From Treponema sp. (GTDB lineage: Bacteria; Spirochaetota; Spirochaetia; Treponematales; Treponemataceae), in NCBI GenBank assembly GCA_016286535.1, contig JAEESZ010000006.1, forward strand, positions 124,001 to 188,000: a stretch of DNA of 64,000 nt. The letters are read 5' to 3'. The notes beneath the pieces are model-generated. The model had not been told where the DNA came from, did not search any database, and worked only from the letters and a program-made list of their open reading frames with translations. Below are positions 25,612 to 30,758 of this stretch, piece after piece. The position numbers were made by a program, and so were the translations under genes. Numbering within the stretch: position 1 is the first letter of the stretch; each line of letters starts with the position of its first letter.

Positions 25612-26169
25612 TTATACCCCCTTCTTATTTTTTATAAAATCTATAAGTGTTTTTTTACTGCTTTCAAAGGCAAAAGGAATTTTTTCTATATCTTCCAAAG
25701 AAGAGACCTTTACAACCTTAAGGTCAGAAACTTCGCTTTCCTGAGGATGCAGGGTCTTTAATAAAGCATATAAATCCTTATAAGAGGACGGAAGTTTTGA
25801 AGAAAAAAACATATCACAGGTTTTATATTCAATATTCTTATATAAATAAGTATTAGGATAAGTACATATAAAAGAGATATTTTCAGGCTCAAATCCAAGC
25901 TCTTCCTTACACTCTCTTATAATGCCTTCCTCTGCCCTTTCATCCGCATCTATAAAACCGCCTGGAATTGCAAGATAGCCCTTCCTTGGTTCCTTTGCCC
26001 TTACTTCAAAAAGCACATTGTCAAAATCATCATATAAAACAAGACCGCAGGCAGCTGCAACATTACAGTATAAAAGAAAACCACAGTCGGAACAAAACCA
26101 TTTACGGTTATTATCGCAGACAATGTGTTTCTTTCCGCACAAAGGACAAAAATTAAAGGTATTTTCCAT
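25612..26169 (-). CDS. Nudix hydrolase with N-terminal zinc ribbon
   Basis: The 185-residue enzyme hydrolyses a nucleoside diphosphate linked to another group. Its N-terminus has two CxxC pairs (CPLCGKK at residues 8-14 and CSDCGF near 27-32), a zinc ribbon like that of NudC-type NADH pyrophosphatases. The Nudix box is intact: GGFIDADERAEEGIIRECKEELG near residues 70-92. The substrate could be NADH, ADP-ribose or a related compound. Its ATG overlaps the last base of the ECF gene stop, so translation may be coupled. Confidence 0.9.
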   Translation of the reverse strand: MENTFNFCPLCGKKHIVCDNNRKWFCSDCGFLLYCNVAAACGLVLYDDFDNVLFEVRAKEPRKGYLAIPGGFIDADERAEEGIIRECKEELGFEPENISFICTYPNTYLYKNIEYKTCDMFFSSKLPSSYKDLYALLKTLHPQESEVSDLKVVKVSSLEDIEKIPFAFESSKKTLIDFIKNKKGV

Positions 26170-28307
26170 CAGAACCCCCTCATGGTAATGGCATCTGCAA
26201 GCGCTTCAGATCTTTTTATGGTCTGAATAATAACAGGTACAAAAAGCGGTACAAGGGCCTTAATTTTTGCAACAAGACCTTTTACACTTTTCATGCTGCC
26301 CCTGATTATCTGAGTTTTTATAATGCAGGCTGTTTCTTCTATAAGCAATGGAATGAATCTGAAAATAACTTCCAGAATTAAAATCAGATAGCGGACCGGC
26401 AGTTTAATTTTTTCAAAAGGCCAGAGAAGGATTTTTAAGCCGTCTATTAAATCGTATTCAGGAGTAGAAACAAAGAAGGCGCAGATACAGGCGATTGTTG
26501 AGTAAGTTCGTAAAAGGCTTTCCAGGCTGAAAAAAAGCTTTGACGGCGTTATGGCCAACCATTTCCAGCTTACAAGGGGGACTTCATCCGGTAAAGGGGC
26601 TTTAAAAATCATCTGCAAAACTGCAAAAAAGCCCAGGAAAGGAAGTATGCGTAAAAAATTCAAGAGAAGTTTTTTCAGCTTAAAGCCGGCAAAAAAAGTG
26701 TAAAACAGGGTGATGGCAAAAAGCCCTGCACACCAGAGAGGCCCTTCAATTAAAAGAGAAGTTATAAAAAGGCCAAGGAAAATAAGGATTCTTAAAAAAG
26801 CAGGTATCTTTAATAAGACTGATTTTTTGGGAAGATGAGTTCCCGCTACCGAAGACGTTGCCTTTCTTAAAGTATCTAAGATTGAAGCTGATTCTATTTT
26901 TTTTAGCATTTCCAGACCAGGATCATCTGCTGCAGGGACAAAGGCTTTAGAGCCAAGACTGCAGGAATCGTAAACAAGTCTTCCACTTTCTATTCTTATT
27001 TCGCGGTCTGCAAAATCTATTTCGTCCTGATGATGGGTCGAAAAGAGGATTGTCTTTCCCTGCTGACTAAGTTCCCTGAACATTTTGAAGAGCTGATTTC
27101 TTGAAGGAGAATCAAGCCCGGCACTTGGTTCATCAAAAAAAAGAACATCGGCATTTAAGGCAATAATTCCCGCTACGGAAAGCCTTCTCTGCTCTCCCCC
27201 GCTTAATTCAAAAGTATGCCTTTCTTTAAAAAGGTCAAAAGGAAGGCCGGCAAGATCCATGCTCTTTTTTACAGTTTCAAGCAAAGCTTTATTTTCTATG
27301 CCCATATTCTTTGGACCAAAAGCTACATCATCTGCTGCAAAGGCTTCAAAAAGAGCAGAAGCCGCATTCTGCTGGGCAAGGACCGGCATTTTACAGGCAT
27401 AAATATTTCCGCCTGCATTAGAGTTTAAGCCTGCTGCAATTTCAAGTATTGTAGATTTTCCGGCCCCAGATTCTCCTGTAAGGGCTGTAATAGTCCCCTT
27501 ATATAATTCAAAGCTTACATTATGAATACCGTATTTTTCGTTATAATCAAAATTAATGTCAGAAAGTCTTAAAGAAACCTTTTTATCTGCTTTTTTTACA
27601 AGAGCCTGTTTTGAAGTCTTTTTAAGGCTTTCTCCCTGCAGCATAAGAAGATATTCTTTATTGCTAAAAAATTCTTCCCTGCTTCCCGAAAAAAAGATTT
27701 TACCCTTTCTCATGGCAATAATGCTGTTTACATCTCTTAAGGCTTCTGTTTCATGGGTAATATGAATAATTGTCTTTCCCTTATTGTGCCAGTATTTTAA
27801 AAAATCAAGAATATCGGAGCGGGTCTGAGGATCAATCATAGAAAGGGCTTCGTCCAAAATTAAAACATCTGTATCGCAGGCCAGCATACCTGCAAGTGCG
27901 GTTTTTTGAACCTGGCCAAGAGAGAGTTCTGCAGTTCCACTCTGGGCGTGATCAAGTAAATCTACAATATTAAGACATTCTATTGAACGCAGTTCTATTT
28001 CTGATGCTGGTAATTTCTGATTCTGAGGACCAAAGGCTGTGTCCCGGTAAACTATGGAACTTACAATCTGATTTTTAGGAGACTGGAATACAATTCCAAT
28101 ACGGCAGTTTTCTTCAACTTCAATACTGCCTGAAAGAGGCATTTCCAGTCCGCAGATAAGACGTGAAAGAGTGGATTTTCCACAGCCATTAAAACCAACA
28201 ATAGCTGTGTAAGAACCTTTTTCTATATTAAAAGAGATATCGTCTAAAACTAATGCTTCCGTCTTAGGATATTTAAATGTGACATTCTTTCCGGTAATAT
28301 AACTCAT
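26169..28307 (-). CDS. Fused ECF transporter module: two ATPases plus EcfT in one chain
   Basis: This ~712-residue protein combines parts that are normally three subunits of an energy-coupling factor importer for vitamins or metals. The first ATPase (about residues 1-230) has Walker A GFNGCGKST, but its signature is LSLGQ and its Walker B ends DEA. The second (about 245-465) has Walker A GESGAGKST, signature LSGGEQ and Walker B VLFFDEPSAGLD. The last ~200 residues hold about five membrane segments and end with EALADAITMRGF, as in EcfT coupling proteins. No substrate-binding S-component is nearby. I choose the ATG at 28307 (MSYITGKNV); an in-frame ATG at 28328 is also possible. Confidence 0.9.
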   Translation of the reverse strand: MSYITGKNVTFKYPKTEALVLDDISFNIEKGSYTAIVGFNGCGKSTLSRLICGLEMPLSGSIEVEENCRIGIVFQSPKNQIVSSIVYRDTAFGPQNQKLPASEIELRSIECLNIVDLLDHAQSGTAELSLGQVQKTALAGMLACDTDVLILDEALSMIDPQTRSDILDFLKYWHNKGKTIIHITHETEALRDVNSIIAMRKGKIFFSGSREEFFSNKEYLLMLQGESLKKTSKQALVKKADKKVSLRLSDINFDYNEKYGIHNVSFELYKGTITALTGESGAGKSTILEIAAGLNSNAGGNIYACKMPVLAQQNAASALFEAFAADDVAFGPKNMGIENKALLETVKKSMDLAGLPFDLFKERHTFELSGGEQRRLSVAGIIALNADVLFFDEPSAGLDSPSRNQLFKMFRELSQQGKTILFSTHHQDEIDFADREIRIESGRLVYDSCSLGSKAFVPAADDPGLEMLKKIESASILDTLRKATSSVAGTHLPKKSVLLKIPAFLRILIFLGLFITSLLIEGPLWCAGLFAITLFYTFFAGFKLKKLLLNFLRILPFLGFFAVLQMIFKAPLPDEVPLVSWKWLAITPSKLFFSLESLLRTYSTIACICAFFVSTPEYDLIDGLKILLWPFEKIKLPVRYLILILEVIFRFIPLLIEETACIIKTQIIRGSMKSVKGLVAKIKALVPLFVPVIIQTIKRSEALADAITMRGF

Positions 28308-28337
28308 CTGACTAAACACCGGAAGCATAAGTTTTTA

Positions 28338-29123
28338 TTATTCAAATTCCAGAATGAATTTTATGCTTCCAACTGATGATTTTAATGAATCAGATTCAAA
28401 ATTAGAAGTACCTTCACTGTCATAAAGATCAGATTCTGAAAGGGTCATCAGGTTGGTATTATCAACGTTTTCTGAATGAGTTTTGAATACATCGCCATCG
28501 TCGGTAATTTCGGCTTTTTGTCCGGCTCCGACAACAACAGCTCCGGCTGGGGCTTTATCATCAATATCTTCTGCAGCAGTATTTGAAGTAGCCTTACCAT
28601 TGCTGCCTTCTTTAGAATCATCAGATTTTCTTTGTCTGGTATTTGCTTCATTGTTTGGATAAACAACCATAGCACCGGAAAGACATTCATTTTCTCCGCT
28701 GCCAAATGAAACAATTGTAGTACCGCGAACAGAAGCGACAGAAACCGGTCCGGTAACCTTATAGCTTACCCTTGTATTTGCAGTGTGAGTTACCTTTGAA
28801 CGAACTGCACCTGTATTCAGGTAAACATCAACCTTATCTTTACTTTCTGTAGAAGAAAGCTGTCTCAAAGTTACCCTTGTTAAAGCTGCAAGAGTCATGA
28901 CTGAACCCTTGTATTTAAGTTTAGCTTCCGACTGAAAGCCTGTATTTACAATCTCAGTTTCCTTTACGCTGTCGCCAACATTTAAGGCAACCCAGGCCCC
29001 CTCCCTATTAACCTCTACTTTTCCTTTTGCAAAGGTAACCAGGGCATCTTCAGCAAAAGCCTGGAAAGAAGCAGAAAGCATAAAAAGTGTTATTACAAAT
29101 ATTTTTACTAAAGCTCTTTTCAT
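28338..29123 (-). CDS. FecR-domain secreted protein
   Basis: The 261-residue product has a signal peptide (MKRALVKIFVITLFMLSASFQAFA) and a FecR-type domain at about residues 25-150: VTFAKGKVEV, the AWVALNVGDSVKETEIVNTGFQSEAKL pattern, TRVTLRQL and SVRGTTIVSFG. FecR domains in spirochaetes usually occur in periplasmic proteins of unknown role. The C-terminal part is low-complexity and acidic. The start is the ATG at 29123, preceded by AAGGAGAAG; a longer form would overlap the upstream gene. It is the third gene of an envelope operon. Confidence 0.85.
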   Translation of the reverse strand: MKRALVKIFVITLFMLSASFQAFAEDALVTFAKGKVEVNREGAWVALNVGDSVKETEIVNTGFQSEAKLKYKGSVMTLAALTRVTLRQLSSTESKDKVDVYLNTGAVRSKVTHTANTRVSYKVTGPVSVASVRGTTIVSFGSGENECLSGAMVVYPNNEANTRQRKSDDSKEGSNGKATSNTAAEDIDDKAPAGAVVVGAGQKAEITDDGDVFKTHSENVDNTNLMTLSESDLYDSEGTSNFESDSLKSSVGSIKFILEFE

Positions 29124-29142
29124 AATCTTCTCCTTTATAAAG

Positions 29143-30279
29143 CTAGAATGCAAGGGCAAACCTGAAGGTTGCATAGTAATTGTTTTCAAGTCCCTGAGTT
29201 ATATAATCCAGATAGCCGTGAATATTAAAGCCCATCTGAAGGTCGCTCAGAACATTCCAGTTAAAGCTAAGGTCCATATCAAGACCCTTAAAGTTGAAGT
29301 TATCATCACAATCAAAAATTGCCTTGGTATTTAAGATTGTCTTGGTTTTTCTGGACATCAATACAAAAGCAAGATTTGGAATTAAAGTGCTTGTATATTC
29401 ATTTGAAACAAGGCTTGTATAAGAGGTGCTTGAAGAAACTCCGTTGTAAGGACTAAAAATAGCATTGTTTCCGGAAGCATAGGAACAGCCGATTACTGCA
29501 TTGAACTTTTTAGAAGCAATGAGGGTCAAATCTGCCTGAGAATAATTCATTACATTCTGGAAGTTTACTGTAGCAAACTGACTTATTATAGAATAATAGA
29601 AAATGTTTGTAAGATAACCCTTCAAAAGGAGATTTGCGTAATAGCGGCTGAAGGCTTCTTCAGTAGGATCAATTACAGCAAAGGCCTGGGCACTTATATA
29701 CTGATTTGCAAATACTACCGGGAAGGTAAAAGTCAAACTTACAGGAATATAGCCTTTAGAAAGAGAATAAAGGGGATTTTCAGGAGAAAGTGGGGCTGAA
29801 CCAGGGCCCAGCATTGTAACGGTGTTTGAATTCAATAAACCTGTATAACCTGCATAAAGGGAGCTTATGAATACAGGCGAAGAATATGCAAACTGCAAGC
29901 CATCGCAAAGCTGATTCAGGGTGATTTTTGTATTATCCTGAATGGTAAATCTTCCCATGTTCAAAAGAAGCTTTCCTCTTGAAAGGGGCTGGACAAAAGC
30001 CAGCTTGAACAAATCTATATCTACAGTGTGATTGTGATAAAAGCCTGCTTCCTGGTAAGAAAACTCATATTTATAGAAGCTTTCTGCAGAGAAGGTCCAC
30101 TTTGAACCAAGATTACTTCTAAACCAGAAGTATAATTCATCTGCCTGATTTACTCTGAAAGAAGAAAAATCTTGTGTAGCCCCCTTTGAGTTGTTTCTTA
30201 AGATTCCGCCCCATTCAGAAGCAGAAATAGAAGATATTAAAAGGCAGGCGCTAAGAATAGAAACCAGTAACTTTTTCAT
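29143..30279 (-). CDS. Probable outer-membrane beta-barrel protein
   Basis: The 378-residue product has a signal peptide (MKKLLVSILSACLLISSISA) and alternating polar/hydrophobic strands throughout (LYFWFRSNLG, WTFSAESFYKYEFSY, LLLNMGRFTI). It ends in FRFALAF, a C-terminal phenylalanine signature of outer-membrane barrels. No family is recognised by name; a porin-like or assembly-related barrel is inferred. It lies two bases after the small secreted protein gene and 19 bases before the FecR gene. Confidence 0.72.
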   Translation of the reverse strand: MKKLLVSILSACLLISSISASEWGGILRNNSKGATQDFSSFRVNQADELYFWFRSNLGSKWTFSAESFYKYEFSYQEAGFYHNHTVDIDLFKLAFVQPLSRGKLLLNMGRFTIQDNTKITLNQLCDGLQFAYSSPVFISSLYAGYTGLLNSNTVTMLGPGSAPLSPENPLYSLSKGYIPVSLTFTFPVVFANQYISAQAFAVIDPTEEAFSRYYANLLLKGYLTNIFYYSIISQFATVNFQNVMNYSQADLTLIASKKFNAVIGCSYASGNNAIFSPYNGVSSSTSYTSLVSNEYTSTLIPNLAFVLMSRKTKTILNTKAIFDCDDNFNFKGLDMDLSFNWNVLSDLQMGFNIHGYLDYITQGLENNYYATFRFALAF

Positions 30280-30281
30280 TT

Positions 30282-30758
30282 TTATTCTTCCTCCGGATCA
30301 TCAGTGAACTGCATTTTTCCATATAAAACATTACATTTTGTAATTAAATCCAAAGCCTGTCTGCCGGAAATTATTGTTTTAGGATCAGTTCTTGGGGAAA
30401 TAATGCCATCTGCTTTTAACTGCTTAAAAGCATAACGGGCAGAACCTTTTGTCATCTTAAAGAAAAGACCACCTTTCACATGCCAGTTTTTAGCAAGAAT
30501 CTTTGCAACGGTTTCTATTGTAGGAACATCTAAGGCGGTAGCATCAGTTGCCATTAAAGAATTGTCAATCAGAACATCTACAGCTTCGTCAAAGCTTGCA
30601 TCATCTGTAATTAAATTCTGATTGCATGCTGCTAAATAAGCTAACTGTCCGGTAGTTACTTCTTTTGAATTAAGGATTTGAGTGATAACATCTGCCGACT
30701 GGGCAAAAACACTAAAAGAAATAAAAAATAAAGAACAGAATATAATAAACTTTTTCAT
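30282..30758 (-). CDS. Secreted helical protein heading an envelope operon
   Basis: The 158-residue product has a clear signal peptide (MKKFIIFCSLFFISFSVFA, cleavage near FAQ). The mature part is helix-rich with regular Leu/Ala spacing and an acidic C-terminus; I do not recognise the family. It is the first gene of an operon with the barrel and FecR-domain genes. A strong promoter (TTGACA-17-TAAAAT) ends seven bases before the ATG and there is no ribosome site, so it is a leaderless candidate. A large imperfect inverted repeat lies just upstream of the -35. Confidence 0.75.
   Translation of the reverse strand: MKKFIIFCSLFFISFSVFAQSADVITQILNSKEVTTGQLAYLAACNQNLITDDASFDEAVDVLIDNSLMATDATALDVPTIETVAKILAKNWHVKGGLFFKMTKGSARYAFKQLKADGIISPRTDPKTIISGRQALDLITKCNVLYGKMQFTDDPEEE

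Follow-up and report, generated by a model that had tools for sequence, protein, structure and literature searches.

A reading frame of a Treponema sp. genome (GCA_016286535.1) raises the question whether the two ATPases and the coupling protein of an ECF transporter, usually separate chains, form one polypeptide there, and which S-component such a polypeptide would serve. The frame is located on the minus strand of a stretch of 64,000 nucleotides of contig JAEESZ010000006.1, which was analysed as a whole and is called the window here. The longest mechanical open reading frame, counted from the first start codon, spans positions 26169-28328 and encodes 719 amino acids. Because most homologues begin level with the second ATG, the start at position 28307 was chosen, which results in a protein of 712 amino acids (26169..28307, stop codon 26171-26169).

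The domain composition was determined with several searches. Pfam detected two ABC_tran stretches, followed by CbiQ at residues 507-712 (77.5 bits, cut-off 25). The first ATPase domain, EcfA1-like and comprising about residues 1-225 (27633..28307, minus strand), is assigned by the NCBIfam EcfA1 model TIGR04520 (330.4 bits, cut-off 315) and by the motif counts given below. The second, EcfA2-like domain comprises about residues 244-449 (26961..27578, minus strand), and the EcfT (CbiQ) domain about residues 497-712 (26172..26819, minus strand). In sequence searches against solved structures residues 5-221 matched EcfA1, residues 310-447 matched EcfA2, and the C-terminal part matched EcfT at 3.9e-16. 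An AlphaFold2 model built from an alignment of 63 fusions was predicted with high confidence (pLDDT 90.3, pTM 0.85), which was lowest near both inter-domain joints. A fold search with the whole fusion returned two-ATPase ABC proteins and was uninformative concerning EcfT. The proposal of the sequence-only reading that EcfA, EcfA' and EcfT are united in one chain of about 712 residues was thus borne out by Pfam, TIGR04520, the matches to solved structures and the predicted fold, and all parts of an ECF motor are present in this single protein, in the order EcfA1-EcfA2-EcfT. An artefact caused by a frameshift or by the assembly was ruled out, because one open frame of at least 702 amino acids was present in 47 of the 48 same-genus matches; the match in G043 is partial.

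Directly downstream a gene for a Nudix hydrolase with N-terminal Cys motifs is located (25612..26169, minus strand), the start of which overlaps the stop codon of the fusion gene by one base (TGATG). A Nudix gene follows the fusion directly in 43/76 loci, with a median gap of -4. The gene directly upstream encodes a FecR-like protein of 283 amino acids (28338..29189, minus strand), and a FecR-like gene is the next upstream gene in 29 of the 76 loci. In the window it is the first of three minus-strand genes at 28338-30758, followed by genes for proteins of 378 and 158 amino acids without a Pfam match, and relatives of the FecR-like and the 378-aa genes are found again at upstream positions in other fusion loci of the genus. 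Nudix and FecR were considered as parts of the mechanism and dropped, as they are conserved in a part of the genus and other genes are found at these positions elsewhere. In three further loci the fusion is preceded by a ThiD-like (phosphomethylpyrimidine kinase) gene of the same orientation, which was identified by Pfam in L147 and by similarity in L063 and L066.

The fusion turned out to be widespread. It was matched in 48 of 98 same-genus genomes, the source genome included (1e-60 or better), and in 115/195 genomes of the family, representing 15 of 20 genera (1e-50). The best family matches were located in frames of at least 695 amino acids in 108/115 cases, and frames were shorter in seven genomes (G110, G114, G157, G173, G178, G211, G212). 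At 1e-40, 41 of 296 phylum genomes matched, several of them with two-ATPase proteins of about 500 amino acids, and one genome outside the family and within the same order (G475) contains an A-A-T-sized frame of 759 amino acids. Among the best 80 loci of named genomes, the reading frames of which were read at 69, single-chain A-A-T proteins were present at at least 17 spirochaete loci (L067-L079, L081, L086, L093, L106). One Actinomycetota locus (L112, see below) had such a chain with an additional N-terminal part, and the others had, where resolved, an A-A fusion with a separate T gene or three genes. A plasmid search returned three-gene or weaker matches only, among the matches listed. A FastTree phylogeny with local supports was calculated from 50 rows, i.e., the window protein, 28 fusions spread-picked from 75 loci, and 21 other modules. 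A branch with a support of 100 separated all 29 spirochaete fusions from the two- and three-gene homologues (A-A+T, A+A+T), and it appears that the fusion arose once and forms one clade. The sequence-only reading had allowed that such a fusion might already be common and described in the group. It is indeed common, and no description of an A-A-T fusion was found in searches of open-licence PMC papers, a scope outside which the ECF classification papers (JB 2009, FEMS 2011) fall.

To characterize the two ATPase domains, motifs were counted over the 63 aligned fusions. ATPase 1 of the window protein has the Walker A motif GFNGCGKST (38-46), the signature LSLGQ (128-132), a Walker B motif ending in LDE (D152, E153), and the H-loop residue H185. 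The respective elements of ATPase 2 are GESGAGKST (278-286), LSGGE (368-372), FDE (D392, E393) and H425. Walker A, Walker B and H-loop are therefore intact in both ATPases, and both catalytic Glu residues are present. D152, E153 and H185 are invariant in all 63 fusions; in ATPase 2 D392 is invariant, E393 is found in at least 90%, and H425 in 61/63. While the signature of ATPase 2 is canonical (LSGGE in 61 fusions, MSGGE and LSGGQ in one each), that of ATPase 1 is degenerate, with the second Gly replaced. The unusual LSLGQ noticed from the sequence is a real and conserved feature, being present in 46/63 fusions; ISLGQ and FSLGQ also occur, LSQGQ was found in four, LSPGQ in two, and others once each. 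Six fusions (L081, L086, L093, L106, L075, L079) have LSGGE or LSGGQ instead. As the deep branches retain LSGG, the second Gly was apparently lost later, inside the fusion clade. A DEA Walker B had also been called unusual and, together with LSLGQ, had been taken to indicate unequal ATP sites. It proved to be ordinary, with invariant D152 and E153 and with DES at this position in solved EcfA1, and thus only the signature remains as an argument for asymmetry. A signature completes the site of the partner domain, and therefore the site with the Walker motifs of ATPase 2 should be the weaker one. The consensus ATP site would be formed by Walker A and B of ATPase 1 and the LSGGE of ATPase 2, and the weaker site by Walker A and B of ATPase 2 and the LSLGQ of ATPase 1. 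The fusions of L065 and L066 have a different asymmetry, because their ATPase 2 has an altered Walker B (DDP, DNP) and an altered H-loop (S, N).

The second deviation from a standard ECF motor concerns the C-terminal end. Two Arg motifs of the EcfT domain, R669 and R710, are invariant in 63/63 fusions, and according to PMC10368641 the Arg motifs of EcfT belong to the coupling helices. The chain stops two residues past R710, whereas solved EcfT chains extend 38 residues past this end point, and the T protein of the second module of this genome extends 39 residues past it, with a most hydrophobic window of 2.43. The C-terminal hydrophobic segment usual in solved EcfT is thus absent from the window protein, and hydropathy suggests that the missing tail is a membrane helix. 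At most 20 residues follow R710 in 61 of the 63 fusions, and a hydrophobic tail (36-41 residues) is retained only in L065 and L066. The CbiQ model was still covered from 14 to 208 of its 216 positions, and the short end was treated as a putative variant trait. The loss of this tail, together with the LSLGQ signature, could also be taken to mean that the fusion does not transport anymore and is, e.g., a regulator or a relic. This is hardly credible, because the Walker motifs, the H-loops and the Arg motifs of the window protein are all intact, 37 columns do not vary over the 63 rows, which have identities of 30-59%, the fold is confidently predicted, and the fusion has been kept together with a putative S-component, PanT, as described below.

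No S-component of the families PF12822, PF09605, PF02632 and PF07155 is encoded in the window, in agreement with the observation from the sequence that none is nearby. The genome, which is 93% complete, was searched for the same four families, while TrpP was found by its position. PF09605 and PF07155 had no match, and PF12822 matched a single protein. This is the one orphan S-component found in the genome, a PanT homologue of 228 amino acids located on contig 17 (L150, G000 C17:194352-194981), i.e., on another contig than the fusion. It belongs to the ECF_trnsprt family (52.3 bits, cut-off 30.7). With a profile of 12 PanT-like proteins the best matches in the PDB were 6zg3_C (2.6e-23) and 4rfs_S (1.9e-22), with RibU next at 0.016, and the predicted fold (pLDDT 84) was closest to 4rfs_S and 6zg3_C as well. 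The S-components of 6ZG3 and 4RFS are identified as the PanT of ECF-PanT in the relevant parts of PMC7755397 and PMC11521937. An NCBIfam search with the homologue did not reach a PanT model, and the homologue shares 26-27% identical residues with solved PanT in the fold alignment. The end of coaX overlaps the start of the PanT homologue gene, and the product of this neighbouring gene was identified as type III pantothenate kinase (291.7 bits, cut-off 233); coaX adjoins PanT also in G077. Two other candidate partners were rejected. RibU had no match in this genome, and Trep_Strep (PF09605) is absent here, with four representatives in relatives (L159-L162) that adjoin their own T and A genes.

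The proposal that the motor may serve many distant S-components, which should share upstream riboswitches with it, was not supported in this genome. The TrpP-like S-component is encoded together with its own A, A and T genes (L006), BioY with its own M and N genes (L002), and the PanT homologue is left as the one orphan found. An Rfam scan of the window yielded one match, a tRNA, and riboswitches were found neither there nor at the PanT, BioY and TrpP loci. In G141 the fusion and BioYMN are the only modules found, and PanT is the only orphan S-component found.

Co-occurrence linked the two genes throughout the family. Among the 195 genomes, 109 contained both fusion and PanT, 75 contained neither, six contained only the fusion (G093, G104, G108, G136, G164, G228), and five contained only PanT (G006, G128, G163, G167, G205), which corresponds to a phi of 0.88. 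Incomplete assemblies may be the source of some of the 11 exceptions. The Fisher value of 3.9e-40 ignores kinship, and thus the association was also analysed on an rpoB tree. This tree comprised 120 of the 195 genomes, hand-picked from 173 that matched rpoB. In 16 independent pairs that differ in the fusion across supported branches, PanT changed in the same direction in 10-12, in the opposite direction in none, and was unchanged in 4-6 (median p 0.001). Fusion and PanT were on one contig in 26 of the 109 genomes and less than 3 kb apart in 13. The linked genomes belong to three genera plus the Breznakiella-type loci, and therefore the number of independent linkage events is small. In three Breznakiella-type loci (L086, L093, L106) PanT is located directly downstream of the fusion, and in L081 a few genes upstream. 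The group I trait, physical linkage of the S gene with the genes for A and T, is absent here, adjacency being confined to some lineages.

These results bear on the reading that several scattered S-components, of which PanT is just one, use the fusion as a common motor (group II). The missing S gene next to the fusion in this genome would fit, a scattered location of S genes normally goes along with shared modules according to the pertinent section of PMC7755397, and an additional partner might belong to families such as ThiT or QueT, beyond the four covered by the genome-wide search. This reading is nevertheless rather unlikely, as TrpP and BioY have A and T genes of their own, PF12822 yielded PanT alone with PF09605 and PF07155 unmatched, and the presence of the fusion tracks PanT so closely. 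Taken together, the likely partner of the fusion is the separately encoded PanT.

Less probable still is that this partner is PanT-like and carries another compound, a CoA precursor such as pantetheine or a different vitamin. The specificity of S-components is readily altered, the identity to solved PanT is low, and the ThiD-like kinase gene adjoins the fusion in the three loci mentioned above. In contrast, the two PanT structures were clearly the best matches by sequence and by fold, and coaX is a neighbour of the PanT gene in two genomes. The absence of pantoate ligase also argues against another compound: this enzyme (PF02569) was not found in 17 of the 18 genomes searched, including this genome, while in G077 it is present in addition to PanT. 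Many of the fusion-bearing treponemes are thus predicted to depend on outside pantothenate. Two genomes of the same genus, G049 and G191, have neither the fusion nor PanT nor pantoate ligase (PanC), and the genus must therefore have a further way to obtain pantothenate.

We therefore consider it highly probable that the one-chain motor docks the separate PanT and drives pantothenate uptake for CoaX. By analogy to known ECF transporters, the fusion would dock PanT carrying pantothenate in the membrane, and ATP binding would shut the two covalently linked ATPase domains, into the grooves of which the two coupling helices of the T domain, tipped by R669 and R710, should fit. Closure would expel and reset PanT, and pantothenate would be delivered to CoaX for phosphorylation. 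These known transporters are the model for the docking of PanT, for what is transported and in which direction, and for the cycle of expulsion. It is tempting to speculate further, with somewhat less than even confidence, that the motor stands between group I, with dedicated and linked modules, and group II, with shared and unlinked ones. A one-chain motor of one origin would then serve one unlinked S-component, PanT. Its EcfT would have lost the final membrane helix, which leaves the end of the second coupling helix free, and its ATP sites would have become unequal after the fusion, which might alter the expulsion and re-docking of the S-component.

The known ECF motors have to be put together from three chains and in many cases are shared, a complication for single-molecule experiments and for studies of stoichiometry. 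In the one-chain motor the ratio of the parts is fixed by nature, there is apparently one partner only, and EcfT is trimmed. It therefore offers a direct way to test whether the motor must come apart during the cycle, whether both ATP sites are needed, and what the last EcfT helix contributes.

Several known arrangements resemble the fusion in part. Fused A1-A2 ATPases, seen here in Chloroflexota, Clostridia and Neobacillus loci, also have two ATPases per chain, but EcfT is a separate gene; this arrangement is among those given in the relevant part of PMC6828968, which does not mention an A-A-T fusion. In the three-gene ecfA1-ecfA2-ecfT operons of Clostridia the gene order equals the domain order of the fusion, but the genes are unfused and fall outside the fusion clade. 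A protein of 998 amino acids from an Actinomycetota MAG (L112:7278-10274) has A-A-T in one chain like the fusion, but the two ABC ATPases and CbiQ are preceded by about 240 hydrophobic residues, and it forms a long branch outside the spirochaete clade. Its N-terminal part matched no Pfam family, and the protein possibly unites all four ECF components. Two further Actinomycetota frames (L137, L139; 722 and 709 amino acids) start some 700 bases ahead of the double-ATPase match and would have space for a similar N-terminal domain. The closest parallel is ECF-PanT of Lactobacillus delbrueckii and Levilactobacillus brevis (6ZG3, 4RFS; group II), which has the same EcfA1, EcfA2 and EcfT domains and likewise a PanT-type S-component encoded elsewhere. 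In contrast to the fusion, its motor consists of three separate chains common to several S-components, and its EcfT has the 38 additional residues beyond the second Arg motif. The fusion is thus a known machine in a spirochaete variant that is well conserved, for which the partner is well supported and transport is predicted.
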